From assembly GCA_961205875.1 (NCBI GenBank), contig OY540813.1:13487001-13551000 (forward strand): DNA of 64,000 nt, written 5' to 3'. Numbering within the stretch: the stretch's first letter is position 1; every line of letters starts with the position of its first letter. This DNA is from Sialis fuliginosa (Eukaryota; Arthropoda; Insecta; Megaloptera; Sialidae). Below the pieces are notes generated by a model. The model did not search any database. It worked only from the letters and a program-made list of their open reading frames with translations, and had not been told where the DNA came from. The translations under genes and the position numbers were made by a program. Shown piece after piece: positions 3,041 to 64,000 of this stretch.

Positions 3041-3166
3041 AATATATGTATCTATTTACCATGCTGCCAATGATTAGCTATTTATTCATATGTAAGTATA
3101 ATAGTAAAGGTAATTAAGTTCATTATATAAAAAGACTTGTACGCAACATGAATTCCGTTGGACATA

Positions 3167-3568
3167 CAGTAGAATCCGGATATTACGACTCCGTTTATAA
3201 TGGCTAACCGTTTTTAGCAACGGCTCCGGTTTAAGTGACCAACTGCTTACAGCGACCTATTTTGACAGTAAATTGTCCGGTTAGAACGACACGCAGTATA
3301 TATTTACATGCATAGAATGTAGGTTCATTGTATCTCTGATCAAACTGTAATACATTATATATATACCTATATAATGTGCAATGTTTAAGTAAATACCATT
3401 AAAGTTACTTTTTATTAATTTTAATGTTTGTTTTATTTAAATAGAAATTAATCTAATTATAATAAGAATTACAGTAATAAAAAATTATCCGGTCGTTTAG
3501 TGCGTCGTCCGGTTAGTACGACGAAGTGTCGCCGGTCTATTGAGGGTCGTTATATCCGGATTCTACTG
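3167..3568. mobile_element. pogo/Tigger-like MITE
   Basis: This 402-bp element lies between two TA dinucleotides (3,165-3,166 and 3,569-3,570), the target duplication of the Tc1/mariner/pogo superfamily. Its terminal inverted repeats start CAGTAGAATCCGGATAT on both strands and stay similar for about 27 bp. The CAGTA start is characteristic of pogo/Tigger ends. There is no transposase reading frame, so it is non-autonomous. The interior is rich in short GACG/CGTC motifs, unlike the AT-rich surroundings. Confidence 0.8.
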
Positions 3569-3759
3569 TACATCCTTATTTTATTCCTACTCTGACCTAA
3601 TATAAGGAAAGTTAAATATTAAATTGTTATACACATATTTGCATTTACATATATAGATATAAGTGTAGGTATATATGTTTATTATTTAAGAGATAAAATT
3701 CACTGAATTGTAGTATCAAATTTGTAGTCATATAACATATTAAATTATTAAACATGTTA

Positions 3760-3903
3760 TTTAAATTAAATATACACCTTAACCACAATAAAGCAAAATG
3801 TCACTCGACACGTGTTTCGACTTCAGAAGAAGTTCTCATCAGGAGCATAATAGTTTCAGGTGGCGATTCACATCGTTTTATTGTGATTAAATATTTAATT
3901 AAG
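3760..3903 (-). ncRNA. hammerhead ribozyme motif, minimal type I (retrozyme or Penelope-like relic)
   Basis: Read on the minus strand, the core is CTGATGA (3,842 to 3,836), then a stem II hairpin (3,835 to 3,819; pairs G-C, A-U, C-G, U-A, U-A, C-G with one bulged A and a UUCU loop), then GAA (3,818 to 3,816), then a two-pair stem III (AC/GU, 3,815-3,814 with 3,809-3,808) closed by an ACGU loop, then the cleavage base C at 3,807. Stem I continues with CUCG pairing to the GAGU that follows the cleavage site (3,843-3,846 with 3,803-3,806), then, after an internal loop, a long helix between 3,871-3,903 and about 3,760-3,800. All conserved catalytic-core bases of the hammerhead family are present. 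The very short stem III is known from Penelope-like elements and metazoan retrozymes. Cleavage is inferred, not shown. A small reading frame on the plus strand here is accidental. Confidence 0.75.
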
Positions 3904-4868
3904 AAACCGCAATTTCTCCGTTTACCAATAATAAACATGTTACGTTCGCATATTTGATAGGAGCGTTAATTAATCAAAACATATTTTTCTCATGCAATTA
4001 TAAGAAAATATTAAAACCAATTAAAAGTAAATCATTTATTTGACTAATTACTAATAACTATAATTATAAAAACAACATAAATTTAAATTATCAGGATTCA
4101 AGACTATATGTATACATATTATCAAAATATTGATATAAATTAGGTAAGTATTATTTTTGCATAATATTTATTTCCAAGAATTCATTCTCTAAATCACAAT
4201 GATAATAAAGACGTTTTTTTAATTTTTTTAATAAATACCAAAAATAAAATTTTCGGGAATTCCCAACAATTTTCAGCATAAAACATTGAAATCTAAAAAA
4301 CTGTTTATGCAATAGTTTGTGAAAAAACCCAAATAATATGTATAACTAACGATTGTGTCAGTACAAAATACGCAAACAGTGGCGAAACCATATTATATTT
4401 GCTACAGGCCCCGCGCTGACTTAATCCGACACTGGTTTAAGGTACGAATCGTGCATTTTACCGTCAAAAACCACGACAACCACTGCATTCTTAAATGAAG
4501 TAGAGTATAGACAGTATTACTCAACTTTTACAATAAAAAAATTTATTTTGTTATCTTCAAAATTTATTATTGTCTAATGAGTCTAGTTCTAGTAGATAAA
4601 AATACTATTATATAGTAATTTGCGCAGTGATCCGTGAACTACGGGTTAAAGATATCATAAAAACAACGGAGACGTTCAGAAACAAAACAAAAAATCCGCA
4701 AAGCATGTGAAATTGTAAATGATAAAAATAAAGTTTTGTTTAAATAACCTTATCTACTAGGAAGTATGAAATATAAATAATAACATTTTTGGTAAATATG
4801 TAGATTTAATATTGTAGGTACAATTTGTACTAAAATTAAAATTAAAATTAAATTATTCATTATTTATA
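3904..4868. other. gene-free AT-rich spacer
   Basis: No gene or convincing repeat was seen. Near 4,378-4,438 there is a short remnant starting CAGTGGCGAAACC and ending CGACACTGG, possibly a relic of the CAGTGGCGCC-ended transposon family found elsewhere in the window. Confidence 0.5.
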
Positions 4869-5541
4869 CCGGATGTTTTTTTAAAGACTTTTCAACGGAG
4901 TATTTTCAAAATAACAAATTTTCTGAAAAAATGTTTCGTACAAAAGTTTTATGGTTTCGAGGGAGTGATCTTGATAGGTTTTCAGGGTTAAATTTTTTTT
5001 TTCCAAATCTAATCCTGTATTTTTTGTTACAAATTCGTAATTCACGAGAAAAAATAACCATGGGACTTTTTTCTGAAAATGTTCACTTTTTATGATATGG
5101 AGCAAAACATACAAAAATTTATGGATTTTCAATAATTTTTTACTCAAAAACTATGAATTCATAAAAATAATCGCAAGAAACAAAAAGTGGTTAGATTTAA
5201 CAAAAGTTCTTGGGGATTTTTTTTATATGTACTTAATTCATTTATTTATTTTTTTCAGAATTTTCCTTTATAAAAAGTTGTTTAAAAAAATAATTTTGGA
5301 AAAAAAATTATTCCAGATTCCTTGCTTAGTTCTAAGTTCTTTTTTAATCTTTTTTTTTTTTAAATTGATAGTTTTCGAGTAAAATTTCCAGAAAAAATAT
5401 TGCAGACAAAAGTTGTTTATTATTTTTCGTTAATTAGGAATCTCTAAAAAAATTGGGTTTAAATTTGAAAAAGAAAAGTTTAACCTGAAAATTCGTTATT
5501 TCGGAAATAATCTGCTGGAAAGTCTTTAAAAAAACATCCGG
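4869..5541. mobile_element. Tc1/mariner-like MITE
   Basis: This 673-bp element is bounded by TA at 4,867-4,868 and 5,542-5,543. Its inverted repeats of about 25 bp start CCGGATGTTTTTTTAAAGAC at both ends. The interior holds overlapping reading frames of 88 and 96 codons on opposite strands. They are low-complexity Lys/Phe/Leu translations of an A/T-skewed repeat and resemble no transposase that I know. It is a non-autonomous element. Confidence 0.8.
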
Positions 5542-5979
5542 TATATCTAATTCTTTAAATTAAGAACGGTCCTGTGCACGTCAATGTACAAGTATTTGCA
5601 ATTAAAATATACACCTATTAGATAGATATACCTACACTCTGTAATGGATTGCCATTGTCAGAGTTTATACGATATGTAAATAAATAACAGTATCAAAATT
5701 ACGACTCCTTATTAGAATTAGTAATGTGTGAATGATGTTTTAGTATTTCATTACATCATGTTTGTTTATTGACAGAAATGTATTTAATATTTTGACTTTC
5801 ACCTTTTGTAGGTTTGTACATATTACATGTCCAGGAAATATTTTATGTTTATTTAAAATACTACATTAATATGACATAAAAACGATGGAATGTTGGGTTT
5901 GTTTCATGTAATTCTCAATTTAAACATAGGGAGGAGGTACGGTGGGATGAAATGTATCCCCTTTTTATAGCATGTTATC

Positions 5980-8241: not shown

Positions 8242-8948
8242 TGCGAAAAGAATAGCAGTTAGCTGAATTTTTGTATACGCCTTCGTTACGGTGTTTTAAA
8301 TAACGAGTAGAAAATCCCCATCGATATCGTGTCGGTGTTGCGAAATATTAAAGGTATAAGGACACGAAAAACGATTTTTCGCAAATATCTCGCTTTCTAT
8401 AGCTCGGGGGTCAATGGGGGTTATATTTTATATTTATATTTTCGTGGTGTATAGCTAAAAAAAAGTTATAATAACTTCCATTGACTGGCATTGACCCCCG
8501 AGCCATAGAAAGCGAGATTCTGAGATATTAACTATTCAATTTACTTCTTTGTTAGTTTATGAGTTTTAATTTGTTTTTAAAAAGGGAAGGAGGTCGCGAG
8601 GGTCTTTAAGTGCGTGATACTCTTAAAGATAATAGTGTAAACTACATTTAAAAAAAAATTGAGTCTGTAGGATCGCGCCAAGCTGAGATATTAACTATTC
8701 AATTTACTTCTTTGTTAGTTTATGAGTATTAATTTGTTTTTAAAAAGGGAAGGAGGTCGCGAGGGTCTTTAAGTGCGTGATACTCTTAAAGATAATAGTG
8801 TAAGCTACATTTAAAAAAAAATTTGAGTCTGTAGGATCGCGCCAAGCTGAGATATTAACTATTCAATATCGATGGGAACTTTTTACACGTTATTTAAAAT
8901 ACCGTAACGAAGGTGTATACAAAAATTCAGCTCACTATTTTTTTCGCA
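8242..8948. mobile_element. palindromic transposon with internal 164-bp tandem repeats
   Basis: Long terminal inverted repeats of about 85 bp begin TGCGAAAA at both ends (8,242 onward and up to 8,948) and share blocks such as GCTGAATTTTTGTATAC and CTTCGTTACGGT. Inside, a second inverted pair (ATCTCGCTTTCTATAGCTCG near 8,389 and its complement near 8,497) forms a hairpin. Next come about two and a quarter tandem copies of a 164-bp unit (GATCGCGCC starts at 8,671 and 8,835). A diverged copy of the same unit lies at 1-160. No coding capacity is present. Superfamily was not assigned. Confidence 0.7.
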
Positions 8949-30580: not shown

Positions 30581-33500
30581 ATGGAAGAGTTAATTATTCC
30601 ACCTTCACCTAAATGGTTTCAAAGTTCTATAATTACATGTGCACCAGACAATACTGTTATTTATGGAGCTAATTCTGCTTTAGTTATAATACAGCCACCT
30701 AATAAAAACCGAACAACTTCTGATATTAAGTTTATCAATCCAGCACATAATGAGAAGTATGTACATTTTTTTTTAAATTTAATACTTATACTTGATCTCA
30801 ACAATTTTCTTATTTATTTTTAAGAGTATGCGCTGTTACATTAGATCCTTTGTTATGGAACAAACCAGATAAATTAGTAGGAACAATTGGAGAAGATAAA
30901 ATGGTCCGATTATGGGATTTAAATGCATTGAATTTAAAGTTAGCTCATAATGCTCATGTTGTAAGTTATTAAGTTAATATTTAAGTTTTATAATCTGTCA
31001 TATAAATCAGTACCAGATTTAAAAAAAAAAAACATTTGAAAGCAGTCAATAAATAATTGCAACACAGAATTGTGATGTGCTTATCGTAGTTCTCGTGCAA
31101 ACATCATTTCAATAGAATTTTTTTTTAAATTCAGGGGTTAAAAAAAGAATGATATTTATCCGAACGTAAAATTTTAGAGACCGACGGTTTTAAACTCGAG
31201 GTGAAAAACCAGAACCCCCGGTTTACCTTTTTTTTTGGTCACCACTTATCCATCTAGTTGCAAAACTTTTTTTTGTCACTATCTAACCTCCATAGGAAGC
31301 CCCACTTTACAAATTTGTCAGGAGTCATTTTGTAATTACGTCACAGGAATAAAATAGATAATATTGGTGAATTAGAGCCCCTTTCTGCTGTTCATGACAC
31401 CCCATATTTTAAATTTGGCACTGCACATCACTTTTAGATTTGAAATACAAATCTACAACTATATTATTTTTATCAACAGAATAGTGGCGCCGTACCTATT
31501 GGTATTTCTATGGTTGGTAACAATATAACAAGTATGATGAATGATGGAAGTATAGCTGTTTGGGACATTGCAAGTAACGTAGCTAGGGTTTTGTATTTTA
31601 AAGTACCATCACATTGGAGAGTTACGTGTATGTCAGCAAATCCTGCTGATTCATCATGTATTGCATTTGGTAGCAATAAAGGACTTGTATTTATTTATTC
31701 CACTAAAGGTAAAACTATATGATGTTTAGAGATAAGAGAGTCAAAATTAGTAATGAGCAGAAATATGAATATAATATAATGTAATATTACAAGTATTAAA
31801 TAATATTAAATTCAGATGAACATTAACATTTTCCCGATCAACATGGTTACACTTTTCAAAAAGAGATTTTCTTTTTTAAGACCAGTTTTTTGGGGGAATT
31901 TTTAATTTGTTTTAATTAAGAGTTATCATCATCAGTCACTAACTGGGACAAAATGACACTTCGAGACTTACCTACAAATAAATTATTTTTGGCTTGACTC
32001 AGGGGACGTAAATATAAACAAATAGTATAAATAAATTAAATTAATACAATATATATTTATAGGGTCAGGACAGATTTTAAACAAATTATATGGCCATGAA
32101 TCAGAAATAGTAAACTTATGTTGGCGTCCAAGGTATGACAATGATGGCATTGTAGAAAATATTACGCTTGAGAAATCTGATGAAGAATTGAATTCAAGTA
32201 GCGATAAAGATTCATATAGAGAATGTAGTACTGATGATGCAACTTTAAAGGATTCTCCTGAGAGAAAAACAGACCAGGTAACTGAAAACAACCCAGATAC
32301 AGAAACAATTGTTGATACAATTGAAAAAAAACCAGATGCTGAAATGATTATTGTTGATATAACTGAAAAAAAGCCGGATGCTGAAATAATTATTGTTGAT
32401 ACAGCTGAAAAGAAACAAGATGCTGAAATGATTATTGTTGATACAACTGAAAAGAAACCAGATTCTGAAACAATTATTGTTGATACAACTGAAAAAAAAC
32501 CAGTTGCTGAAACAATTGTTATTGATACAACTGAAAAGAAACCAAATTCTAAAAAAATGATTGTTGATACAACTGAAAAAAAACCGGTTGCTGAAACAAT
32601 TGTTATTGATACAACTGAAAAGAAACCAGATTCTGAAACAATTATTGTTGATACAACTGAAAATAAACCAGATGCTGAAACAATTATTGTTGATAAAATT
32701 GAAAAAAAACCAGTTGCTGAAACAATTGTTATTGATACAATTGAAAAGAAATCCGAGGTTAATACAGTTGTTGATGTAACTGAAAAAAGATCGGATGCAG
32801 ATACAACTGAAAAGATAGTAGATGATGATACAAATACTGTTGATACAACTAAAAAGAAACCTGTTAAAAAGAATCCTTGGGTTGATTTGAAGTTTCCAGA
32901 TGATGATGATTTCAAAAACAATGAAAATATAACTGAAAGAAGTGATGAACCTATTACAAATTATCTTGAAGAATGCAGAATTTTGCGAAAAGAAATTGAT
33001 AGTGCAGAATCTTCTACTTATTCGCCGGAATCATATTCAACTAGTGAAAATGAACCAACAGTATCAACACTACGAAAAGTTGATAAAAATAAGGAGATTA
33101 AAAACATAACTAAAGACATGAAAAAATTAGAATTAGAAAAGGAAGATTGTAATTTAAATAGAGTTAGAAATTCATTGTTACTTTCTTGTGCTAAAAAAGG
33201 GTATTTATATTAAGAATAGTAAAATAGAATTATATTTGATAATATATATATTTTTTAAACAGGCAATTATCTATATGGAATCGCCATGGTCGCCTTCTTT
33301 ATCAGTTAACAATAGGAGCATTCCGCCGAAATAGTAAATTATTTCGAAATAGAGATAATATGATGTCGAATTGGTCAGTTGCTGCTTGGCCTGAACCAGG
33401 ACTAGTAATTACTACATCTCCATCGGGGGAACTTTTAGCTTGGAATCTTCTTGGTAGTCAAAAAGGGTAATAATATTACATTTTTTTTTTTTTTAATATG

Positions 33501-45300: not shown

Positions 45301-48300
45301 ACAATACAGCAATTATATAGGTAAATACAAATATTTATTGTGTTGTCAAATAATAAATAGTTTAAAATATTTTATTTTGCTATAAAGTTACCATTACATA
45401 TAGATATTATAAGAAATATAATATTACATGTAAATTCAATTCTTACCTTCACGACAGCTACAGGTATAAGTTCCTCTTAAATTAAAGCATTGGGCATTTT
45501 CAGCACAATCATGTAATCGAATGTCTGTACATTCATCAAAATCAGATATTGAAACAGCACCAGTAACTCCATTGAGAGTTTCTGCACTTGATGAATTTTC
45601 TTCTGTTAATTCTAACACTGGGAGTGCTATAAGAGGTGTTCCTCCTATACTGTAATTTGTGTGCCTTAAATGTCTTTCAAATACATCTGCAAGTTGGGTT
45701 TCTTCTGTGTTTTCTTGTAACTGTAATTAAAATTAATATAAATTATTTAGAAAAATTGCATTGCTTAAAGTTCTATTCTCGAAATGAGGTCTGGTATAAA
45801 TTTTGTTACAGTGTACAGACATATCTTGCTATGGTAATTTTGTTTCATATTTAAATGTTTACAAAATTTTTATGTTAATATAATATACGCTTTGTTACTA
45901 ACCTGAACATTGAAGGTGTTAATTATTCCTTTATCATGAGGTTCGGGCATGAAATTTTGCAAGCGCAGTCCAAGATAAAGATCTCTCAGATCACTTTGCA
46001 TTAATAAACGGTGCAAAGCATCTTGAGTGGCCATTGAAAGATGTCTTCCTAAAGAACTATTGTTGTCTGATAATGCAGACACCCATCGCAATGGTTCTGT
46101 TCCCAGTGATGCAAGTCCCATCCGCACAGTGTATGTATAGGTAGCTGTAATAATTAATAATAGTTTACGTATTAAATTTAGAATATATGGGGTTGCTACA
46201 AACTGCTTTAATTTACAAAATACACTTACGTTTACATGGTCTGTCAGGGAACATTCTGGCGAATCCTGGTCTACAAACACATCTCATAATACCATGAATA
46301 TTTTTACAAAGTTCATTTCTTGCTGTTTTGCAATCAGGTCTACATTCGCTAACATTATGTCCTCTATCAGGAGAATCTAATCTTGGTGGTGAAGCAACTA
46401 TAACTCCACCAAATTTAACACGATTTATTTCATTATCTTCAAGTTGTTCATCTCGAATAATTTCATATTCTTCTTCTGATGGTGGTACATCTTTTATATT
46501 TGGAATTGCACTACCTTTTGTATCAGTCATTACTACAAATATAGACTCATTTTCATCAGAATTATCATTATTGATCTTGGAGACATCGTTATTGTGTTTA
46601 TCGTAGTAATTTTCTTCATATTCATGACTATGGTCATTACTGTTACTGTTATCATTAGTGATACTGACGTAGGTGCCATCATCATCTGTTATTATAATAT
46701 CCTCAACAGAATCTACCGGAACGTCTGGAGATTTTAAAACTGTTGTAGCTGCTACTGGGAATGATGGATATTTGCTGTTAAATTCGACTTCAGGATTATA
46801 TAATGTACTTGTTGGATTTGTATTAACGGTTGTTGTTACAGTCGATATAATGCTGGTAGGTTGAACTAAAGTATGAGTTTCAGTAACTGTATCCACTATT
46901 GTTGAAGTTTGAGTTTTAGTAATAAGAAGAGTCAGTGTGGAAGGAGGATTACCTTGACTCTTCACAATTGTAGTTTTTGTAGTCGTTACAGTTAAAGTTT
47001 GTGTATGTGTTATATAACGTGTAGGTAAAATTAATTTTGTATAATCTTTTTTATTATTATTTTGAACTGCAGAGCTTGATAGTTTTGGTTCAATCTCATT
47101 GCCAGCATGATGTTTTATAGGAGGCATTGTTGTAGTTTCATGTGTTTTGATGTCTAGATTTACTGGTTTTGTGTACAAATTATCAAATATTGTTTCCTCT
47201 GATGAAGTTTTGATTGGTTTTACTTTATTAGTCATTGATAACTTTACTACATCTAACGATTTTGTTGGTAAAATATTCTCAATTGGATAAGATGTTTCTG
47301 ATCCTACAATAATGAAGTCTGTTTTTCTATTGGGCAATTTTGAAACATCCATACTACTATAATCTTTATTTTCAGAAATTGTATGCCAATTTGAAACTGT
47401 CTCTTTAACTTTAATTGATTTAGTTGGTTGTATTCTTACATTAGATTCGTTGCTCATGATGACTTCTTTTTTGGATTCAGAATTAATACTATCTTGAACT
47501 GTTTCTTTAATTTTTGGATTAGATTCTGAATAAATTGGAGAAACCAAAGTTGTTGGCCTTTGCCAAATAAAAACAGGTCTTCTAGTTGTTATAGGATAGT
47601 CATCAAAATATTTTCTTTCTGTAGTTGATTCAAGTTTGATAAAATCTGGTTGTTTAACCGTGGGTCTTCTAGAATATGGCCGTTTTGTTGTAGTTGTGGT
47701 TGTCAAAGTTCTAATCGTTGCAGGGGTTGATGTAGTTTTTCTGATAATGGGCTTAACTGTACTTGTGGTAGTCCTTTGAGTAAAGTTATTGATATTAAAT
47801 GGAGGTCTGTATGTTGATATCTCAACATTTAATGATGTTTTTTGTGTAGTCTCCGTTAAAGGTGGTGGACTTAAACCCATTACTTCATTATTTCTAATTG
47901 GATACTTATTAACAGGTGGTGGCGGTTTCATTTCTTCAGATGGTTTTGGAATAAATGCTTGAGGATTTGAATTGCTGTTAATGTTACTCTTTGTCACTTC
48001 GGCATAAGGAGCATTTATTTCTGGAGGTGGTAGCATTCCTTCAACACTTTCATGCATAGACATTTTATCATAAACATTTTCTTTTGTTGGAGGTTGTAAA
48101 TCAATTAAAGGTGTATTAGTTGCTGTAATATTTGACTGTATTGTTTCAAAATTATGAGGATTTGTTGATTCTTTTGTTACAAACAATTCTGATTTTTCTT
48201 CCGTTTCAAATTCAGTGGTAATAGTACTTAGTGTTGTAGTTCTTAGTGGCTTGTAGACTGTTACATTTTTACGAGGTCTATTAATCTCTCCTGTATTCAA

Positions 48301-51300
48301 ATCTTGTTTTAATATTTCATGTATTGGGTTGAACGGTTTTCGTGTAGTATATTTAACTGAATAAGGTCTTGGTGTTGTTGACTTATATTTTATTATATTA
48401 ATAGTACTGCTATTTAGTTTCTGATTAATAAAGTAATTTAATTCAGTTGTTATTTCATGATTAATTTTCGGTTTGGTGTATATATTATTGAAGGGTTGTT
48501 CAGTTTGTGATCCAGTATTCTTAAAATCTGTTTGTGAACCAATGATTTGTTTATCTGTTACATATAAAGAAGTATCCACTGGCAATGAAGTTGGATGAGG
48601 TCGTTTTTCAATATTTTCATATTTGTTATTTGAATTTTCATACGGCTGTGTACGGTGATTATGTGTATGTACTGTTGGTTTTAACAATACATGAGTTTGA
48701 GGAGGTCTTCGCTCAAATGGCTGTGGTTGGTTGATGATATCTATGCCAGGAATTCTTGGATATGGTGATTTAATATTAGTGTAGTAAACTGACTGCTCAT
48801 GAGCAACTGGGAGTTTTATTACTTCACTCTGACCTTTCATTTTATTTGTAGGATCTTTTGTTTCCGTATCAGTAGAGTAACTTTGCCCATTATAATTATT
48901 TTTCTGTGGTTGTTTATGGCCTTTGACAATCGGTTCATTAATTGGTTGCCTTTCCAATATTTCTTGTGGAACTTCACCTGGTCGTAAAGGTCGTTGTTTT
49001 GATTCTTGAATCACCTCACCTTCATCAGTTAGTTCATCTTGGTTGTTACTGTCCCCAAATCTATCATCATCCACAATCTCTGCTTCATGTATAGGAATAA
49101 CCATTGGTTTTGTTTGAGGTCGAATATTTAGTTTAGGTTGTGGTGGAGGTGGTGGTGACATAAATTCAATTATTTCATGCTTGCTTGGTTTCATTGAATA
49201 ATGAGGTGGTCTTAAATAATCTGGCCTCAATGTTGGTTGTCTATTTTCTGTTGGAATTTTAATTCCATTATCGGCATATATTGAATCATGTAGATATGGT
49301 TGTGTATTTGTGTGTTTTGTTTGATAATGCTTATTAGAATTATGCCTATTTAATGGTGCATCTATTACAATTCCAACATGTTCATGGGTATCAATTCCAG
49401 TTAAAGGATGTGGTGATACATTAACGTTAATATCTTCAGACCCAATATGATCAACATTAACATTAATTCCGTAAGGTGAAGAATCATGATTAGGTCCTCC
49501 AAACGCCACAGAGTGCCCTGAAATACTCAAACCCATGTTATGGTGTTCTTTTTGGTGATGATTGTCAAACATTATTGGTCCATGATTTTCTTTCCGATCT
49601 GTTGGATCAGCATCATATACATTCCCACTACTGTAGTTTTTAGCATATATTTCTAAATGTTTTTCTGTAGTTGCACCAAATGAAATTGGAGGTACATTGA
49701 CGTTAATATTATGATTATTAACATGTGAATTTACATTCACTACACTTCCAGTTTTTAATCTGTTAAGGTCTTTCTTTTCAATGCCAAATGATAATGGTGG
49801 AACATTTATATCAACTCCATGTGAAGCAACATAAGAATCAATATTAATCACATTGCTAGCTGGCCTTGGTATAACAATTGAACTTCCAGAAGAATATTGA
49901 GAATCACTAAAGGCATTAATAGCGGAAAAACCAGGTTCTACTTCAGGTTCAGGATATGGAGAAGGATCATCAAAATATTGTCCATTTTTATGAGGCTCTC
50001 CAGAACCACCAAATATTAATGCAGTTGCACTTCCATGAGGTATTACCACATTAGCAACTTGGGATGGTTGAAGATTAACTAATAACGGTTGTCCTGTTGA
50101 TCTTTCTATAACTTCTGGCAATAAAATTGAATCTCCTAAAGTCACTGGTTGGATGTCTTGGGGCTGATTTTGATTGTCAATACTAGAAGCTTTTGTAGGT
50201 GCATAGAATGGTATATTACGAATTATTATATTATCTGAATTTGAAATTTCTGAATTGCCATAGTTAGAAGGTGATCCATGATTATAATTTTGTGATAAAA
50301 TCTCATGGTTTTTATTTATGTAACCTTCATGATGTACTTCTTGATAACTTATAGGATTTATTATATTAGGTCTGCTTGAAGGTAAAGGTGGAGGAGACAA
50401 ACCAATATCATCTCCATTTTCAATTAGATTTGGTTTATTTCTAGAAAAAATTGAATTAAATGGGCGTTGATGATTATCAGCAAATGTTACATTATGAGCT
50501 TTTTCGTGAAGTGAAGGCACAGGTATACTGACAGGAGGAGGACCAAAATAGTCATCTCTATTAGGTTTCCTTTGATAATTCAATCTTTCAGCTTCGCTTT
50601 TTTTAGGTGCAGGTAATGGAGGTGGTTGCATTCCAATAGGTACTTCATTTCCATTATTTTGAATAAATGGTATTCTAGGTCCAACAATTGCAGGTTTACC
50701 AACAATTACATCTGAATTTGCAGTTATTACTTGTCCAGGTGAAATAGGAATACCGCCATTGACTAATGGACTTTCATAAGTAGGTTTACCGACTGTTATT
50801 TTTCCATGGTTTTCATACCATGGTTTGTCTTGAATTAGAGGACTATTTAAAATATGCTCTACATTTTGGCTTTCTGCTATTAATATATCTTCATCTGCAA
50901 TCCTCCCTACTGGAATATAAATAGGAGCTCGACTTTGTGGATCCGCTGGTGGTATTTGAGTTTTAACTTTAGTTGGTACCGACTGTTTACTTTGAATTCC
51001 TCCATCTGTATCATTTCTTCTAGACAATTGTAAATTGTTTTGAATCAATCCACCAATTGCGTGGAATACAGGTCTTAGAGCTGTCAAGCTGTTTATATTC
51101 AATGATCCTAATAAATTTGATACGCCTGAAGTCGAAGGAACAGTTGTTTTCAGTGGTGTAATTTTATTTGTAGGTTTCTTAAGTGACGGATCTGATACAG
51201 GAATAATTGACTTAGTTCCATTTTCATGATTTATCACAATTACTTGCTCTCCTGGTAGTATAGTTGCACCTGCAGGTGTTACAGTTTTAGAAATTATTAT

Positions 51301-54300
51301 CGAAGTCTTATAATTTTGTGAATTAAGTGTAAATGCTGTGCTTGCTGGATTTTTGTGATTTTTTGTTTTAGATATTTGATTATTCGTTGACTTTATACTG
51401 GATTTAGTTGTATGCACACTATTCTTAGTTGAAATTGAATTCAATACATTTAACGATGATTCGATCTGATTAAGCTCATCAAAAAATATGATTGTAGAAC
51501 CTGTTATGACACTTGGAGATTCCATAATTGTATTCATGTTTGTTTTATCTTGCTTATTTTTATCAACAGCCGTTATTTCTATTTCGTCTCCATTTTTTAA
51601 TGTTGCTACAGTAACTATTTCATTTTCAGCTTTAATTAATGAGCTTTTAAGAGATTCCAAATAACCACTGCCAAAATTAGAAGGATCTAATGTTTCTGTA
51701 ACCACATTATCAATAACTTTAGTTCTTGAGTTAATTATAGTAGACGTTGAACCATTCTTAGCATCTTTTAATAAAGTTGTGAAGTATGTAAATGTTGTTA
51801 AATAAGTTTTTGTTGCTAAAATTTTCATAGAGTCATCAAAATTGTTATCTTTAATCATAGTTGAGCCTTTTATTGGTTCAGTTACAATAACACTTTGAGC
51901 CTGAGAAGTTGTGTGCGTACGTTTTGGATGCAAGTATAACTTTTCTGTAACTACATCGCTTGAAGTAGATACATTTGTTCGTACTACAGCACTCCCGTCT
52001 TCCATAAATGTATTATAATACGTATAAGTTACAAAATACGTTTTTACAACATCTGTAGTGGCATATTCTTTAGTTGCAGAAGGTGCAATGTCATCTACAT
52101 CTATAGCAATATATGAAGTCATAACTGAAGTAGATTTTGGTGGAACTGACTCAGTAACGACAACTTGCGTTATAACATCACTTGTACTTATAACCTTTTG
52201 TTTATTTCCTTCGGTTAAAGTTCTAGTTAATGCAACAGTGCTGTAGTATGTATTTGTGTCTTGTATCGGTAATGCTATTTCAGAAGGTTGAAGTAGAGAC
52301 AGATAATCATCGGGTGCTGTTACAGTGTTAGCAACTGTATGCTTTGAAGTAATTACTATTGGTTGATTGCCATCATGTATTGTATTGTAATATGTGTAAG
52401 TAGTATGGAATACACCAGTAGCCAAATTTGGATTCTGAAAACAAAATGAATGTTAATTATAAATAGTTAATATTTATTTTAATAAAACATTAGTTCTCAA
52501 TGAATGAATGTTATAATGAATGTTTTTAGCAGACAAAAATTATGGACAACACACTTAACAGAAAATTGAAACATGATTAACTAATTTACCACTGTATTTA
52601 TGTAAGTGCTTATATAATACCTGTGTCAAAGTGATTCCAGATGGCTCTGGTGTACGATGAGTATTTCTTTCTTCAGTAGCAATATTAGATACAACTTGTT
52701 CTCTACTGCTAACTGTGGTTGTTCCATCTCGTACATATGTTGTAAGATACGTAAATGTTGTCATACAAGTTTTTGTTACAAATTGATTTGACTGAAGTGC
52801 CTAAAAAGTAATAAATCAATAAATAAATGTCTAACTAATAATGTAATTGTTAAATATGTTTATTTTAAATATTATTTAAACTTAAACATACTTCATCTGC
52901 ATCTTGTGGTAGCAGCATGGACATATGGTCAGTTAGTGTAGTAGGTGCTAATGTACGGATAGATGACATATTTTCTGGGTCTCTTCTGGTGGCTCTTTCC
53001 CCTGCTACAATAACACCTACGCCATTTGACATAACCCGCGTAGCAAGTCTTATTCCTCGAGCTTCATCATCTTCTGTATTTTCCAAATTGTCATCATAAA
53101 AATCTAATAATTATTAAGATAATTGTTTAAATAGATGAATAATGTGTAGAATCAATAAGTACATAATATCCAATATACACTTGTACAATATAATTTGTTG
53201 ATAATATGTATAATACAAAAAAGAAAATTTAATATGTACAAAATCAAGTTAAGAAAATGATATAAATTACCTGAAAAATGATAGCGAAATGAAAAAATAC
53301 ACGAAATAAAAAAATAAGAAAATAAAAATACAAGCTTAATTTCTAAAGAAATAAAAAAATAACAATTCATATATTTAACATATTTATTACATTGTTATTC
53401 AGTGCTGTAGCGCCTGTAGCTATAAAAAATTATGTTTTTTTTTTAAATAGACCGGGGCACATTGCATATTGTACCGATAGTAGAAATTAGAGTGCCAAAC
53501 ACAAAATAATATTTTATTTAAAAGTTTTGGAGTTAATCTAAAAAAACATGATTTAATTAATATAATTTATTTATACATTGTTATGTTTCCAATTTAGTTT
53601 TTGTATAACTACAGTATTGATAATATTTTTTTATAAATATGGAACCATAGGATAAAAGGAAGTATGTGTATATAGGTATGTATAAATAAAAATATTCTAT
53701 ATTAAAGTGAAAATTAATAAAAAAAAAAAAATTAGAATACACTATTTATTTTTCATTGTGTGTTTTCTAAGATAAATTAATTTAACGGATTACAAAACAT
53801 CCACTCGGAAATAAAGAATACTAATAAAATAATAAGAGATATAAATAAAAACATTTTTAACGTAAACAACCATATAACTAACAACAATATGTAGATATGC
53901 AAATATTTTAATAAACAATAATAGTTAAATTTTACAAAATATTTATATTCCATTTAATAAAAGTAACATTATGAGCATACAATTCATTTCTACTTATTGT
54001 CAGCAATTATAAATTGAAATATTACTACGTATCATATTATAAAATGTGGAATACATTGAACTCACCTATTGTTTGTGAATTGTGTTGTACATCTTGGATT
54101 TTTATGGAACCACCAAAAGGATTATCAGTCTGGTACTCGTTATATCCAGTAAAAGTCTTTGTCAGAGTTTCAGTAATCGTTAATGTCTTTGTACGTAATT
54201 TGACTTCTGTGGAAGTAGTCACCACATTACTTTGATCTCCCACTCGAGTAATTACGTAAGTATATGTCCCTGGTCTAATATGAGTCGTTGTCGTTGTTCG

Positions 54301-57300
54301 ATAGGATAAAGTTGTATGTATAGTAGGAGTAAGTTTATATTCGATATCTTTTTTGTCGGTATCAGAAGAAAAAGAAGACAGTAATATGTTTTCGCTTGAA
54401 GAAAGTAAGTGAATTGTATTTTTACTGTTAGTCATATGTATAATATGTACATCAGTAGCAGTAGAAATAGTAGTAAATTTGTCATTGCTACTAGTAATTG
54501 AGTCATTTAGTTTCAGATTTAAAGAAACCAATAGTTGTATATTTGAATTATTTACACGTTCAGTTTCACTAGGAACTACAGAAAAGGAATTGTTTGTTTT
54601 GTTTATAATTTCTGGAAACTTTTCAATTGAAAAATCATGTACAAATATTTGATCGAGTATTAATGTTGTGGTATTATTAATATTTTTGTCGTTATTGTTT
54701 GAAATTGGAAATTTTTCTAACTCTGGAATTGATGTCTTTGTATGTTCTTCTTGCTTTTCTTCATTTAGTTGCAATTTTCTTTGACCATTTACTAATGTCA
54801 AATATAATTCTGGAGGTAGTTCTATTTCAAGGTCTAATGTTGGAATGAACGATGAGTTATTATCTTCTTGAATTTTTTCTGTGGTACTCAATATTTCATT
54901 TTTATTTTCTAAATTATAAAATGAGTTTTCTGGTAAATCTGAATTTCTTACGTTCGTTAAGTAACTCGTATGATAATTGTTAAGTTCAGATATGTAATTT
55001 GAATTCGTGGTGCTAATCAATCTTTTTTTTGTTATAGTAATAATTCGTCGATTATTCATAGATGATATTAGTTCAGTATGATCATTTAATATGTTTTTGG
55101 TTCTTATTGGTCTTTTTTTTACGACTGTAATAGTTTTCCTAGTAGGAATCCTTTTAGTAGTCATATAATTATCATTTGTAGTCCCATTTAAATAATCGTT
55201 ATCAACTACTTTTCTTCTTGCTACTAATTTTTTAACTATTCTTTTTGTTGCAACATTTTTTAAATCTCTTTTATATCTTTTAAAAACTAAACTATCTACA
55301 TTTATTAAATATTTATTATAACTATCATTATTATTTTTATTATACAAATTTAATATTGAATTATTATATATAAAATTTATTTTATTTAAATTATTTTGAT
55401 TCTTTATGCCCCTCAAATCAGAAACAATTTCAACTTTAATTTTTTTAGTGAATGGGGCATTTTTAATATGGTTTATCTTCCTAAAAAATAACTTTTTGGT
55501 TTATTTTCCGAATCAACCAATGTAACTAAATCTAATTTAATATCATCAGAAGATTTCACACTATTACTTTTGTAAGAAATACTTGGTGTACTTTCTTTAA
55601 TGTATTTACTAACATCACCAACAATACTTTCAAGACTTTCTGTCTCTGATGCAGATTCACTTCCCTCAATGTTTATTTCGTTGATTGCAGGCATTAAATA
55701 TGAATCGGTATACTCATACCTTGTATTATATAATTCGGGTATAACAGATGCTTCTACTTGAAAATATTCTGCTGCTCTTTTCCTTAATGTACTATCTTCT
55801 CCTACAATTACTGTAGAAAGAACTGTACTGAATTCTCCTGGCCGTCTACCTGAGACATACAATGTAATAATACTGGTTTCTTTAGGAGGTGGTGCAGGTT
55901 GTTTAGGTTTCTTTGGTTTTTTTCTAGAAGATTTTCGTCTAGGTGCATCTGTTACTATTGGTTCTTCATCATAAATATTTTGTTCATCTAAATTTTCATT
56001 ATCTTTATCAAAATCAGCTAATGGAATTATCAAACTATTTTTACTATCTAAACTATCTTGAAATAAGGCTTGAGCCAAAGGTTGCTCTTGACTCTGAAGT
56101 AAATTAAGCGGTGGTTGACCGCCAAGTCCTAAAACTTGTTGCTGCTGTTGTTGTTGCAATAATAAGGGTAGTAGCAAACTGTTTAATCCAGCGTTAGGTA
56201 CAGGAGTGGGAGTCACCACTATTGTATCTGTAATGAATTCTGTTGCTGTTACAACTTCTTCACTGCTGTCAACAATAGTTGTAAGGATTTTTTGTCCCCG
56301 ATATGTCAATGGCACTACGGTTGATGTAGCTTTTGTAACTGTTGTAACATATGTTGTGGATCTGGTTTTGTATTCTGTCGTTGGTGTTGCTGGAGCAACT
56401 GGATTTTGATTTAATGCTAATAAAGGATTTTGATTTGGTAGACCAAGATTTCCTAAAAGTAATTGTGATAATAATATGTTGGCTAATGGTGCTTGAGCAG
56501 CTAATGCTGGTTGAATAGTTGAAACTACTTGTTCTACGTTATACACAGTGCTTGGAATAACATGAGAGAAAGATGTTTTCCTTCCTCGTATGTATGTTGG
56601 TGTAAAAATAATACCTGTAGTTGGTGTCTCATTTAATATAAATTGAGTAATTTCAGTTGCACCATTACCTCCAATTGCAGTTACTTCATTTGTTAAAATT
56701 AAAAATTGAGCTCCATTTCTGCTAACTGTTGTTGAATATTGACTAGGTCCTAAAACTTCAGTACTAGGTTTTGCAGTGACAATATTTTTATACTCTGTTA
56801 ACTTTCCATTTACAACAGGTATAGTAATTTCTGTTGGAATATGATGCGTTACTGTAATTGTTCCATCATTAGATGGAACATATGAATAATCAAGTTTATC
56901 GTTATTTCTTCCTCTCGCTCTTTGAGTTGTTCTACTTCTAGATGTTGTTCTAGGTTTTGAAGTACCTGGCCTTCTGGAAGCCTCAGGTTGTTGTGAATAG
57001 CTTCTTAAACGAGGTGCTTTTGGTCTTGATACAGTAGGGCTTGCTGTTCGCCGAGAAGAAGATGTTGGTGCAGCACTTGGTCTTCTAAAATTTGATCTTG
57101 TATTTGTAGATGAATCTTTTTCACGTAATGTAAATTGTGATCTGCCTTGATTATTAGATGACCGTGTTGGTGAAATTCTTGACTCTGAAGGGGTAGTTCT
57201 TTGTCTTGAAGAGTATCTTCGGGGTGGTTTAGGAGTTTCTGCATCTTCATATTGAATGTCTTCTTGCACGTCTGATTTAGCAGCAGCTGTTGGTTTTGGA

Positions 57301-60300
57301 CTTGGTCTTCTAAATCTTGAAAAATTACTTCTACTACCATAATCTGCTTGACGTTTAGTACGCTTTCTTATGCCAAAGGGTCTAACTTGAACAGGATTGT
57401 ATGCTCTTCCATTACGATTAGGTGCTTTGACTAATCGACTATTTATATTTGTATTAGAACTTTCATAATCATTATCATCTTCTTCTAGTTCTTCTTCAAG
57501 ATTATCTTCTTGTTCTTCTTCTGGATCCCCTTCTTTTATTTCTTCTTCCTCTTTTATTTCTTCTTCTTCTTTCGGTTGTTCTGTAGTGGTTCTTGGCTTA
57601 AATAATCCACGTGGAGGGAATAAATTGTTTGCCGGTCTCTGTCTGGGGGATACATTCTGAATATTTAATAATGGTGGTCTACTAAATGGTTTGGCTTTTG
57701 GTTTTGGTGTGGTCGTTGTAGTTGTTGAAGTAGTAGTTGATAATCTAGTTCTTCCTTTTCTAATAGTTGTAGTACCTCGAGGTGTTGTGGAAGCAGGAGA
57801 TACTGAACGATTCAATGGTCTAGGGAAACGTCTAAAAGGAGTACGTCTCAATGTAGATGCTTCAGTTGTAGATGTCAAAGCAAGAGTAGTATCAAAATCT
57901 TCTTCATCTAATGTATCAGGTCTATCTGTTAAAACTGTAGTAAGATCATTTTCGGAATCATTAATGTCTGCTTGAGTAGTTGCTGTTTTTGATGCAAATG
58001 AATTGCTTATTCCAGATGAAAGTGTTGGTCGTATCCCTCGAAATCTGGAACTACTAGCATATATGTTACTAGATCTGAATGGATATTGAGAAGATGCACT
58101 GTTTCTAAAACCACCTCTCCTAGAAGTTGCCCCATTAAAGTTTGTTGATGTTGGCTGTATTCTTACTTGAGATCTTCCTCTTCCACTTACTGCAGCCGAA
58201 GATGACAAAATTCCGCTACTTGCTGGTCTTGTTTTTGCATATCTTCGGTCTCCAACACTTGATGGCCCACTACCTGGTATTATTGATGAACTTTGTCTAG
58301 GCCTACCAAAGCGCCCTCTTGTACTTTTTGGTCTCGACGTAGGTGTGGCGGTAATTGTAGGTGTGAAATCAGATCGCGTTATAGTAGTTGCGCTAGTAGC
58401 TTTATTTTTCTTTGGTTTTGGAGCAAATGTTGGCCGACCACGTGAAACAAACGGTCTAATTACAGGAGTAAATGTACGCCTTCTGGTTGTAAAGCCAAGG
58501 CGTGATTTAGTTCGTGTATTACCATCCTCATCTTCATCTTCATTTTCAGTATCATTTTCTTTATCATTGTGATCCTCAGTTAGAGAACTTTCGATTACTA
58601 CAGGTGATGGGCTAATAGAACTTGCTGTAGGCGATACTGTAAATGTTGGACCTACTGTTTCTGTTGGAGATATTTTCGTGGCTAAAGTAGCATCTTTCGT
58701 TTTTTCAATTATAAAACTCGATGTGCTTTCAATAATTTGTGCATATCTACCTTCAATTACAGTGCCAACAACTTTCGATTGATAAATAGTTGTTGTTCGA
58801 TTCTGTACAATAGCACCTTCGATTAAACGAACTAGACCTGTGCGGTGTGGTCTTGTTTCGATATCTGAAGGTAAAGCTGATTTTTTAACCTCATCAACTA
58901 ATAAAGAACTAGTACTTTCAATTACTTGTGCATATAAATTATCGATGTATGTTCCAATTGCTTTTGTTGTGTAAAAAAGTGTACTAACTCCATCAGCATC
59001 AACAATTTTTCCTTGATTTATACTAACAGTTCCTGTGGGTTGTAATTTAACTGTTTCAGTAGGTTGTATCGTCTCGGAAATTATTTGCGTGGTGCTTTCT
59101 TTAACTTTTGCATATAAACCATCAATATAAGTTCCATACACACCTGTAGAGACAACTGTTGTTGTACCATCATTTACTTCACTAGATATAATTGTTGACA
59201 ATAACCCTGTTGAAAGTAATGACTGTGTATCTGTTTTTTGTGATGGTTTGTCATTACTATCTAATGCGTTTAGAGTGTTATCTCCAATATCAAGAGCCCT
59301 AGCTGAATGCTCAGAGTTATCTGTACTATTTACTATATTAGTCACAGTTTCTAAACGACTATTTACTACAGTACTGTCACTAACATATGATGTTGTATAA
59401 TAAGTATATGTTGTATAATATGTTGTTAAATTGTCATTTGTTAAGGTTTCCTCTGGTTCAGGTAAAGATTTTCCAACAGGACTTGCTTCTAATTCTAAAG
59501 TAGATTTATTAATAGTTTCTGTAACTGGCGTCGCCACAATTACCGACAGTTCATTTTCAGTCTGTGTTGGAGTAACGCTTGGAGTTATAACGTTTGATAT
59601 AGTTTCTTCTCGACTTGTAGTTGTAGTAGTACCATCTTTATAAAATGTTGTCCAGTATGTAAAAGTAGTAAAGTATGTAATAGGAAGACTCGAATCTTCA
59701 ACACTAAGTGAACGAGTCGGAGTTAATGTTTCAGTTACAACATTGGTTACTGTTTCTAATCTTGAAACAATACTACTTGCTGTTGTTCCTAAATACATTG
59801 TAGTGAAGTAGGTAAACGTAGTATAACTTGTTTGTAAAAGTAGCGTTGGTGATGGCATAATTTCAGAATCGTTATTGGATTCAGAACTAATTTGATCTTC
59901 TAAAAATATATTTCTTTTTTCGACATTATCTATGATTCGTCTTTCGCCATCTGAACTACTACTTCGAACATCGGTAATTGTTTTCGTAGTAACATCTTCT
60001 TCCTCTTCAGTACTACTACTTGGTTTTCTTTTCATAGTACTGTAGGTTGGTTCAGTATGACTAGATAGCACCTGAGTTGGTACAATATCATTATTAATCG
60101 ACGTTTCCAAGTCTATTTGATGAACATCTGTTTCACTAACTTTATTTAAAAAATCAACTTCTGATACTTGATTAGATGATCTTATAATTGTACTGTTGTA
60201 TATATTCGCCGATTTTATTTTTAAATTCATGATTTTTTCTCTGCTACTTGAATTAAATTCATCATCATCTGTATTTAAGTTATCTTCTAATTCAGCATAT

Positions 60301-63300
60301 TTTTGTTCAACAGAAATTGAATCAGTTTTTAGAGGCTTTTCAGTAACTGATGGAGTAACATAGTTTGTGTAAACTTCAGTTCGACTTGAAACTTCAGTTT
60401 CACCGTCAATAAATACGGTTGTAAAATATGTATACGTAGTGTAATAAGTTTGTACTGCAGCAGCAGATACTTTTATTTTAGAATCATCTAATATTGGTGT
60501 TTTTATATGTTTATCAGATGGATATAATGTAGTTGGTATTCTAGCATCTACATTAGTTGGTACTATATCAGCGAAATCTTCAAAACTGGCAGGTTTGGGT
60601 TTGGAATAATAGTTGGTATTGTGTACTAAACTATCTTCTCTTCCAAATAAACCTGCCACTACTGGATCTGACGCTTGTAGATGTGAATTATCTAAAGTCG
60701 AAGAAATAACATTGGTTATTACAACTTTTCTGCTAGAAACACTTGATGTAGATTCTTGGAAAAATGTTGTAAGATAAGTATATGTAGTGTATAAAGTTTT
60801 ATATACTAGCTCGATTTCTTCTTCGCCATCTTTGGTTATTTCTGTAGTAATGTCGTCAGTTATATGCTTTCTTTCAGTTACTATTTCCAGTGGTGTAGTT
60901 ATAATTGGAGAATCATTGGTAGTTGGTAACTCTATTGTTGTTAAATGTTCTGTTGTGAGTTCACAATCTTCGTCACAAAAATCGTTTACTTTATCAGTTT
61001 TATTTTCTATATCAGAAGTTTCAGAAGTTGTGGTAGGATTTTCTTCAACAGCATTTACAGTAGTTTGTTCTAAAGTAGATTTGACTTCTATTTTATCGAT
61101 TGATGTAGAAGAAATTTCATCTATTATAGTTTGCTCTGAAGTAGGTTTGACATCTATTTTATCGATTGATGTAGGAGAAATGTCATTTGTTGTAGTTTGT
61201 TCTGAAGTAGATTCTAATTCTATTTTATCAACTGATATGGAAGAAATTACATTTTTTATAGAACAAGGTTGTGTTTCATAATTTATCTCTGACGTAGTTA
61301 CTTCATGAGATTTAATAGATGTCGTTTCTGATGTTTCGTCAATAGGAATAAAGAATGTTGTAAAGTATGTATAAGTTTTATAGATTGTATCTGACTGAAC
61401 ATTAGAACAAGATATATCAGCTTTCTGAATTTCATTAATAACATCATTTTCTTCTGTAGTAGTTGAAATTATCAAAGTGGTTGGTTTTTCAGTAGGTATT
61501 TCGTCTTCAATTGTTGTTGGCTGCTTTGTTGTAGTAATATCATTTGGTAAAGTAACTTTTTTCTCAGTGTCAGCGAAAATATCATATTCCGTTTGTTTTC
61601 CAGTTGTTTGGCCAATAGTTGTTTGTTTTGTTGGAGGTTTTGTTGTATCTTTATTTGTCGTAAACAGTTCTTCGGTTGTTATTTCAGCATTGGTTGTTAC
61701 TGTACTTTTCTCTGTTTTGTCATCAATTTGAGAAGGTTTGTTTTCAATAACTGTGGCACTACTTGTACTATTAATATCAAATATATCATCAATAAATATT
61801 GTTGTATATCCACTTAAAACTTGTTTTGTGCTCGAATAAAAAATGTCATCATCATGCGAATCTTTAGATGAAACAGTTATAGAAGATGCTGAACTTAAAG
61901 GTTCTGTAGGAGTTTGGGAGGCTTTTGCAGCAAGAGAAGAGAAAAACTTTGCAATTTCTTCTTCGGACGGAGTAGATAGCATTGGAAGCATTTGTGTTTC
62001 AGAAGGTTGAATCGTTTCCTCTGTGAACATAGAAGTCAAGATGCTAGAGTCGCTGCTAGAGTCGCTACTAGATATTGTTGCTTCTAATTCAGCCATAGTA
62101 ACTGTATCATATTTCTTCGAATCTTGTTCATGAGCTAAAACAGACATCTTTTTTTTCATTTCGATTTCTCTATCTTCTGGATTTTCAATATCTTTACTTT
62201 TTGGTTCGCGATTTGTAGCATCAATCACCATAGTTGGAAGTGATGTTTCCATATTTAATTTGTGACCAGTAACTGTTTTTGTAATCATTCCTGGATCATG
62301 CGAATAAAATGTTTTTAATTTTGTTGCAATTCTTTCGGTAGTTGTTTTTGTTGATTTAGTTTCTACAGTAGGTATTGTAGCGTCACCCGGAAATATTGTA
62401 ACACGACCAGAATTTACTTTTTCGCTACTAGTGCTTGGAGAAAAAACAATTACTGTATCACCCACAGTTGTAGTAAAATCAGCAAATCCGAAGTACGTAA
62501 CAGTATCAAATTCTTTTAAATCTTGTTTTACCAGTTTACCTCCACTCAATAATACTTTTGGTTTTCTTTCTTTAATTGTAGTAAGTTTTGATTTTTCGGT
62601 GGCAACATCGTTTGCATAACCACTAGGAGAGAACACATTGCCTATAGTGAACGTTGCTAAAGCGTCATTTTGTTTAACTTTATCGGGTTGCACATCATCT
62701 AAATTTATTTGTTTTGAAGTTCTTCTACCATTTATATCATTTTCGCTATTTCTTTCAAACTGATATGCGTGTTCTAATTTAATATCAAGAGGATTCGCTC
62801 TAAAAGTAAAGATATTTTTACTATCATTTTCTGAATTTATATACTGTTTTTCGGTGTTCTCTGGTTCATTACTATTCCAGTCTTCGTTTTCACTTTCTGA
62901 ATATGTTGACACTTGTGCAAATGGTTCCGGTAACTCTTCCCATTTAGAAGCAGTTATAACTTCCATCGGCTCTTCAGGTACATATTTTTTCGGTGAATAC
63001 CATGTATCGATTTTGGTTGTTGGGTACACAATATATGGTTCAACTTTATTTGGCGAGACGTAATCAATATTTTTGATAAAGTTGACTCCGTTCAAAGCCA
63101 ATTCGTCTACTTCTAAATTCGGTTTATTAGGAATATTGGAAAATTTTTCTTCACTGTAGTTAGGATAACCAACATACGAAGATGATTTCGGAGAGTATAT
63201 GACGCGAGAGCTAGTTGTAAGCAGATGTGCATAAAGACGTCCATCAGCAAGAGTTGTTCCGAGCACTCGCGTTGCGTATTCCGTGGTGGCGTCACCTTCG

Positions 63301-63421
63301 ATGAACGTTCTAGCTGTTTCCGTAACTAGTCCTAAAGTAGGAGATACTCGTAGAAATCTACCAGCATGAGCTACTCCTTTCGATGTCTTATCGTTGTCCA
63401 CCAATAATACAGCTCTAACGG
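42322..63421 (-). CDS. giant mucin-like transmembrane protein, SEA and EGF domains (5' partial)
   Basis: Visible coding exons: 63421-55720, 55480-54066, 53103-52892, 52800-52621, 52434-46230, 46144-45903, 45720-45447, 45298-45119, 44697-44444, 44307-44053, 43834-43632, 43566-43513, 43443-43329, 42502-42425 and 42354-42322. All are in frame, about 5,800 residues. The first exon, with the signal peptide, lies beyond the window. The ectodomain holds about eleven repeats of a motif like YFTTFTYWTTFYKDG..SREE..NVIT, and four of GTYIDGLYAKVKEST type. I recall such repeats as Pfam DUF4758, an arthropod family. Thr/Ser/Pro-rich mucin and Pro-rich stretches fill the rest. Near the membrane come an EGF-like module (end of exon 5), a SEA domain (exons 6-7), a calcium-type EGF (DECTD..CSCREG) and a third EGF-like module (exon 8). 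The transmembrane helix is LLIALVTLGAVLFILLLVCG, followed by CTKRGRR and a tail of about 300 residues. It is likely an apical-matrix or cell-surface mucin. No orthologue name is claimed. Confidence 0.9.
55481..55719 (-). other. intron with open reading frame, candidate retained intron
   Basis: The upstream exon is open in one frame past a strong donor (AG then GTATGAGT at 55,719) until a stop at 55,473. The downstream exon is in another frame and starts after TTATTTTTTAG (acceptor at 55,481). Splicing these 239 bases joins YNTR to KINHIKN and keeps the frame to the membrane anchor. Reading through gives about 80 further residues and a stop. Confidence 0.6.
61040..61262 (-). repeat. threefold coding repeat in the mucin
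   Basis: Three copies of about 22 residues, of the form SIDKIEVKSTSEQTTTNDIS, lie in tandem in the first visible exon. Copies differ at a few positions. It is typical of mucin repeats that expand by slippage or unequal exchange. Confidence 0.8.
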
Positions 63422-64000
63422 CTGTAGGGGTGTTGTTATATGTATCATGTGTAAATGTAGAGAATAGTTGGTTGGAAATTGTTTACGAATGTTGATTGAT
63501 TCATTGTTGAGAATTCATTGTAGCGATGGCCAGACAGTGGTGAGAAAAACATAGAAAGGATAGATGAAAACAAAAAATGAGAAAACAAATACAATTACAG
63601 ATAATAGCCTGGCCTTTTAAAATTATTTATCAGACAATAATAGGTACATGAAGAAGAAGAAAAATTATTTATTTAAAATTCAACAATGCTTTGAATTGTA
63701 CATAGATCAATTTTAATAAACCAGTCTATAATAAATGTATATAGTCAAAATAAAAATAAATAAAAATAAACCATTCACCGAAAAGTTTAGAAGCAGAAAA
63801 AATTATACTGACACAAAATTTACAAAATTATTTATCATTGGATAGTTACAATTTAATGATAAATTAACATGGTTAGTAAAATAGGCAAATGTTAAAATAT
63901 AGTTAATATAAACTCATAATCATGAAATAAGATTTTTACAGAAGTATTCTAAAAAAAAATTTTTTTTACTATACAAAAAAAACATTATTTTATATTTAAC
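63422..64000. other. intron or upstream region of the mucin gene
   Basis: The reading frame of the 7.7-kb exon meets a stop upstream, and a 3' splice site (CCCCTACAG, ending at 63,422 on the minus strand) explains where the exon starts. The rest is AT-rich, with no exon visible up to the edge. The first coding exon must be further right. Confidence 0.6.

Follow-up and report, generated by a model that had tools for sequence, protein, structure and literature searches.

The closest described systems to the locus studied here are the metazoan non-LTR retrozymes (Cervera and de la Pena 2020, PMC7229834), the hammerheads of Penelope-like elements and Terminons (PMC7761336, PMC6155905) and the pDo500 satellite of Dolichopoda cave crickets (PMC2837043), all of them cited, here and below, from the sections of these papers that were available to us. 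In those sections, retrozyme RNAs are given as around 170-400 nt long and low in GC, with duplications, where present, of more than 4 bp, and a two-pair stem III closed by a tetraloop is described as invertebrate-like (PMC7229834). Dispersed minimal type I motifs occur in non-coding animal DNA (PMC7761336), and isolated hammerheads are reported from rodent Clec2 and from human introns (PMC6155905). Most invertebrate motifs are described as cutting well as monomers (PMC7229834, PMC7761336), and dimer action is reported for newt and viroid motifs (PMC6155905), for Penelope (PMC7761336) and for the axolotl (PMC7229834).

As shown in Table 1, a type I hammerhead was located on the minus strand at 3847-3802 of the window (the whole 64-kb stretch of Sialis fuliginosa DNA that was analysed), where every core letter can be read directly and stems I, II and III have 5, 6 and 2 pairs, respectively, with stem I open. 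Type I hammerheads share the consensus CUGANGA ... GAA, A15.1-U16.1 and H17, and the locus carries it. The earlier note had claimed CTGATGA, a 6-pair stem II with one bulge, GAA, a 2-pair stem III with its loop and a C before the cleavage point, and each of these was found in the letters; it had also described the motif as a lone one, in agreement with a descriptor scan requiring the stems, which over the 64 kb and both strands returned the 3802-3847 motif as its single match, with no second hammerhead. We take the cut to fall between 3807 and 3806, applying the hammerhead numbering to the minus-strand letters. Judging from the sequence, we regard the motif as genuine, with high but not full confidence.

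Table 1. Features of the hammerhead locus (positions within the window; for minus-strand parts, in reading order where the higher number comes first)
Feature	Position	Strand	Basis or remark
Type I hammerhead, stems I-III and catalytic core	3802-3847	-	letters, Rfam, descriptor scan, simulation
CTGATGA core	3842-3836	-	letters
Stem II	G3835-C3819, then 3833-3829 with 3824-3820 (6 pairs)	-	letters
Stem II bulge	A3834	-	letters
Stem II loop	3828-3825	-	letters
GAA core	3818-3816	-	letters
Stem III, 2 pairs	A3815-T3808, C3814-G3809	-	letters
Stem III loop ACGT	3813-3810	-	letters
Stem III and loop, ACACGTGT	3808-3815	-	8-base palindrome, able to pair with a second copy
C17	3807	-	letters
Stem I, 5 pairs	3843-3847 with 3806-3802	-	outermost two are G-U
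Predicted cleavage site, between 3807 and 3806	3806-3807	-	5'-OH product would begin at 3806
Long helix, inner arm	3779-3792		pairs with 3877-3890, 93%
Long helix, inner arm	3877-3890		pairs with 3779-3792
Long helix, outer arm	3764-3773		pairs with 3891-3900, 100%
Long helix, outer arm	3891-3900		pairs with 3764-3773
Candidate target-site duplication, copy 1	3746-3759		13/14 identical to 3929-3942
Candidate target-site duplication, copy 2	3929-3942		13/14 identical to 3746-3759
Inferred 169-bp inserted element	3760-3928	-	inferred from bracketing direct repeat; 33.1% G+C

The core letters by themselves are not rare. A loose consensus without stems gave 25 matches at 7 start points in the 64-kb window, with a mean of 10.39 expected from shuffles, 3 of 100 of which reached at least 25. 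When stems were required, 3000 Markov-simulated 64-kb windows produced 80 loose matches; 10 matches had at least 13 total pairs together with a loop III no longer than 6, and none equalled the 3802-3847 motif on every stem, supporting the minus-strand hammerhead that had been claimed; an earlier run with stems required had given 3 loose matches in 150 windows. The covariance search proposed in the earlier note was less favourable. Rfam RF00163 (Hammerhead_1) aligns its core and stem III with 3802-3847 and is the top of 5 Rfam matches in the 261-bp region, but with 19.7 bits (E 0.024 when 4227 families are compared with 261 bases; around 1.4e-3 by arithmetic for that family alone over 64 kb) it does not reach its gathering score of 34 bits. 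A scan of the full window gave no matches at the gathering threshold and 6 weak ones at a relaxed cut-off, the hammerhead not being among them.

Folding was predicted with ViennaRNA, a program that does not score the hammerhead core itself. In monomer folds, stems I and III had probabilities of at most 0.007 at all 11 nascent lengths, the three isolated pieces of 51-61 nt all took another minimum-energy structure, and a 194-nt fold constrained to the hammerhead lay 9 kcal/mol above the minimum, in such a way that single molecules are predicted to favour competing folds over the hammerhead. A monomer as the working form of the ribozyme thus receives no support from folding, with the caveat that the core is ignored. 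For two molecules, the lowest-energy co-fold (-24.7) combines stem II with a stem I of 4 pairs and an intermolecular stem III of 8 pairs, in line with the earlier idea that the short stem III suits dimer action. A strict double hammerhead reaches -21.9 versus -18.6 for two separate 60-nt monomers; it lies 2.8 kcal/mol above the co-fold minimum with the 60-nt motif and 1.8 kcal/mol with the 48-nt one, the minimum departing from it at core-adjacent pairs. According to these models, two molecules would favour a near-double-hammerhead through the palindromic stem III.

The predicted co-fold resembles the dimer action described, in the sections at hand, for newt, viroid, Penelope and axolotl hammerheads. 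Like the locus, pDo500 is a hammerhead from an insect, for which single and double forms have been proposed, but it belongs to a satellite with roughly 500-bp repeats, and its double-form stem III is described as intramolecular, whereas here it is modelled as intermolecular (PMC2837043, available sections). Minimal type I motifs suited to dimer action are likewise described for Penelope-like elements and Terminons (PMC7761336, PMC6155905, same limits), and the Sialis motif, also predicted to be weak alone, differs from them in having a two-pair stem III with a loop and in being a single motif with no reverse transcriptase found in 1-18 kb. The weak predicted monomer also separates the locus from most invertebrate retrozyme hammerheads, which are efficient as monomers in the published sections; either the copy has decayed or the folding program misjudges the hammerhead core.

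The hammerhead lies inside a long hairpin. The earlier note had seen stem I extended by a helix of more than 20 pairs, and the helix was indeed found, with 24 pairs in 14-nt arms (93%) and 10-nt arms (100%) and a 5-nt bulge between them. The direct extension did not hold: when the fold is constrained to the hammerhead, a small GUGA-loop hairpin of 4 pairs and some unpaired stretches intervene, so that the long helix is modelled as enclosing the hammerhead and not as continuing its 5-pair stem I. None of 200 shuffles was equally stable as the 144-nt hairpin (z -3.65), and 115 of 2662 window tiles fold at least as well.

A 14-bp direct repeat (13 of 14 positions identical, copies 183 bp apart) brackets the hairpin and 169 bp, and the similarity of the copies ends at the repeat, with none outward, as in a target-site duplication. 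The repeat is AT-rich and was spotted post hoc, and 1.5-2.6% of randomly chosen places carry a comparable one by chance, depending on flank size (86 of 5000 with 60-nt flanks, 76 of 5000 with 45 and 132 of 5000 with 80); demanding two G/C as well gave 65 of 5000, and an exact 11-mer with 60-nt flanks, 91 of 4000. From the sequence, its reading as a target-site duplication is suggestive only. A partial second tandem unit was also considered and rejected, as the similarity at offset 183 is confined to the repeat and TRF reports no array there. The element so delimited would measure 169 bp, or 183 counting one duplication copy, and 27 of 300 shuffles were as stable as its circular 169-nt fold (z -1.46), in which self-pairing is not notable in prediction. 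Compared with the metazoan non-LTR retrozymes, as far as described in the available sections (PMC7229834), the locus shares the type I hammerhead with two-pair stem III and tetraloop, and an inferred unit near 170 bp with low GC and no genes of its own seen, and the candidate duplication, at more than 4 bp, may be a further common trait; it differs in presenting one unit, with no tandem array in the window, and in a predicted circle that is not notably stable.

Relatives were sought inside and outside the window. No other copies of the element were found within it, the best outside match being 33 nt long at 85% (E 0.001), and the best matches outside the locus are short and fall at AT-rich ends. 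Neither tandem hammerhead units of 150-450 bp, the usual mark of retrozymes, nor minimal hammerheads in tandem in pseudo-LTRs, the mark of Penelope, were found in the window, which holds the single motif and no TRF array at the locus. Penelope-like elements encode a reverse transcriptase, usually with a GIY-YIG endonuclease. Six-frame Pfam searches over 1-18 kb matched no reverse transcriptase or endonuclease family, in accordance with the earlier note, which saw no reverse transcriptase nearby; the scan can be considered to work because it recovered the host GH47 exons. Pattern scans gave 0 loci in prokaryotic genome contigs and 3 in viral contigs, all of which we rejected as chance matches: the stem-aware descriptor finds a hammerhead in none of the three, each match falls within a reading frame that runs for hundreds of codons, two of them (L002 and L003) agree at all 236 bases compared around the match, and Rfam found no hammerhead on L003. 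The absence of relatives says little on animal genomes, since the collections scanned were viral and prokaryotic.

GC content in the window is only 19-36% per 2 kb. A GH47 gene is spread there over several pieces and frames, and WD40/RIG pieces are present as well; the hammerhead locus is apparently non-coding. Several other repeats were observed. A MITE-like element at 3160-3575, 189 bp from the hairpin arms, has 30-nt inverted ends (90%) that we take to resemble pogo/Tigger termini. An element with inverted arms (71 nt, 90%) at 8257-8936 includes a hairpin at 8387-8518 (97%) and 2.1 copies of a 163-bp sequence duplicated in tandem, and has a relative at 1-137, at the left window end. Inverted arms of 79 nt (81%), 535 nt apart, occupy 4859-5551, and a 42-bp tandem repeat (11.3 copies) at 32280-32751 lies inside an open plus-strand frame, the opposite strand having long open frames as well. 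Two very long minus-strand frames, measuring 2079 and 2669 aa between stops, span 46213-63482; the longer shows strong matches in 7 stretches to DUF4758 (putative sperm flagellar membrane protein), a mainly arthropod domain that in the 2079-aa frame, with 18.8 bits, does not reach the Pfam cut-off of 27. Together these genes and frames point to an animal genome, probably that of an arthropod.

We consider it reasonably probable that the locus holds a single copy of a small non-autonomous element that carries a type I hammerhead and belongs to the metazoan retrozyme or Penelope kind. This reading is supported by the complete core together with the lack of any simulated window equal on every stem, by RF00163 as the top match of its region, by the intermolecular stem III of the dimer co-fold, by the candidate duplication that brackets the locus, and by a length comparable to the RNAs of around 170-400 nt in the available sections of PMC7229834. 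Against it stand the presence of one motif only, an Rfam score under the threshold and unlisted window-wide, a monomer predicted to fold otherwise and a circle not notably self-paired, an AT-rich, post hoc repeat with the chance rate given above, and the lack of relatives in the collections scanned. The retrozyme-like relic of the earlier note survives as the best reading, with the candidate duplication added; no tandem units were found in the window.

Beyond the motif, palindrome, predicted dimer fold, hairpin and candidate 14-bp duplication seen here, we infer cleavage, circularisation and retrotransposition. A minus-strand read-through transcript would cut at the predicted site, and the products would end in a 2',3'-cyclic phosphate and a 5'-OH; the reaction would probably be most efficient between two copies paired by their palindromic stem III. 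According to the published model for multicopy relatives, cutting would trim unit-length RNA, which a host ligase would circularise and a reverse transcriptase would copy back into DNA. The solo copy in the window is probably now passive, and perhaps decayed. As a tentative and rather doubtful extension, the hammerhead may be silent as one RNA and switched on when two RNAs meet via the 8-base palindrome, a concentration-gated self-cutting carried by a monomeric, TSD-flanked insertion of ~169 bp, a size near the lower limit of the 170-400 nt published for retrozyme RNAs.

Derivation from a complete Penelope-like element, of which a pseudo-LTR hammerhead survived truncation or decay, would also account for the very short stem III and the weak predicted monomer, Penelope minimal type I hammerheads being described as possible dimers (PMC7761336, PMC6155905, available sections). 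We hold this origin to be unlikely: reverse transcriptase and endonuclease families were unmatched in six frames over 1-18 kb, the candidate duplication encloses just 169 bp, and Penelope motifs usually go without the variable part of helix III (PMC7761336, available sections), where the locus has two pairs and a loop. That AT-rich intergenic DNA holds a hairpin which happens to spell a hammerhead is improbable, given the 0 of 3000 simulated windows equal on every stem, the stem III type shared with published invertebrate motifs (PMC7229834, available sections), and a dimer fold and bracketing repeat that fit an element; in its favour count the Rfam score under threshold, the 80 loose matches and the 10 with at least 13 pairs in those same simulations, the three viral-contig loci rejected as chance, and the selection of the motif out of a large scan.

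Retention by the host of a single-copy hammerhead for RNA processing, comparable to rodent Clec2 and human introns, would agree with a single isolated motif in the window. It appears very improbable, with no Pfam domains in six frames over 1-9 kb, the nearest recognised coding exon (GH47) 8.8 kb off, although unrecognised exons could be closer, a weak monomer prediction and repeat-like inverted arms on either side. The inverted arms, which are 14 and 10 nt long, and the neighbouring MITE-like arm pair could instead point to a foldback or MITE-like DNA transposon holding the hammerhead by chance, an extremely improbable origin given that a 5-nt bulge interrupts the arms and that they end 4 bp and 28 bp short of the two ends of the 169-bp element.

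The single-copy element that we favour is thus genuine-looking but ordinary, a dispersed motif of a kind already published (PMC7761336, available sections). Solo copies with clean duplications would reveal the insertion of hammerhead elements from circular RNA, and would also show their decay outside tandem arrays; otherwise, the locus adds one more member, probably an arthropod one, to a widespread hammerhead class.
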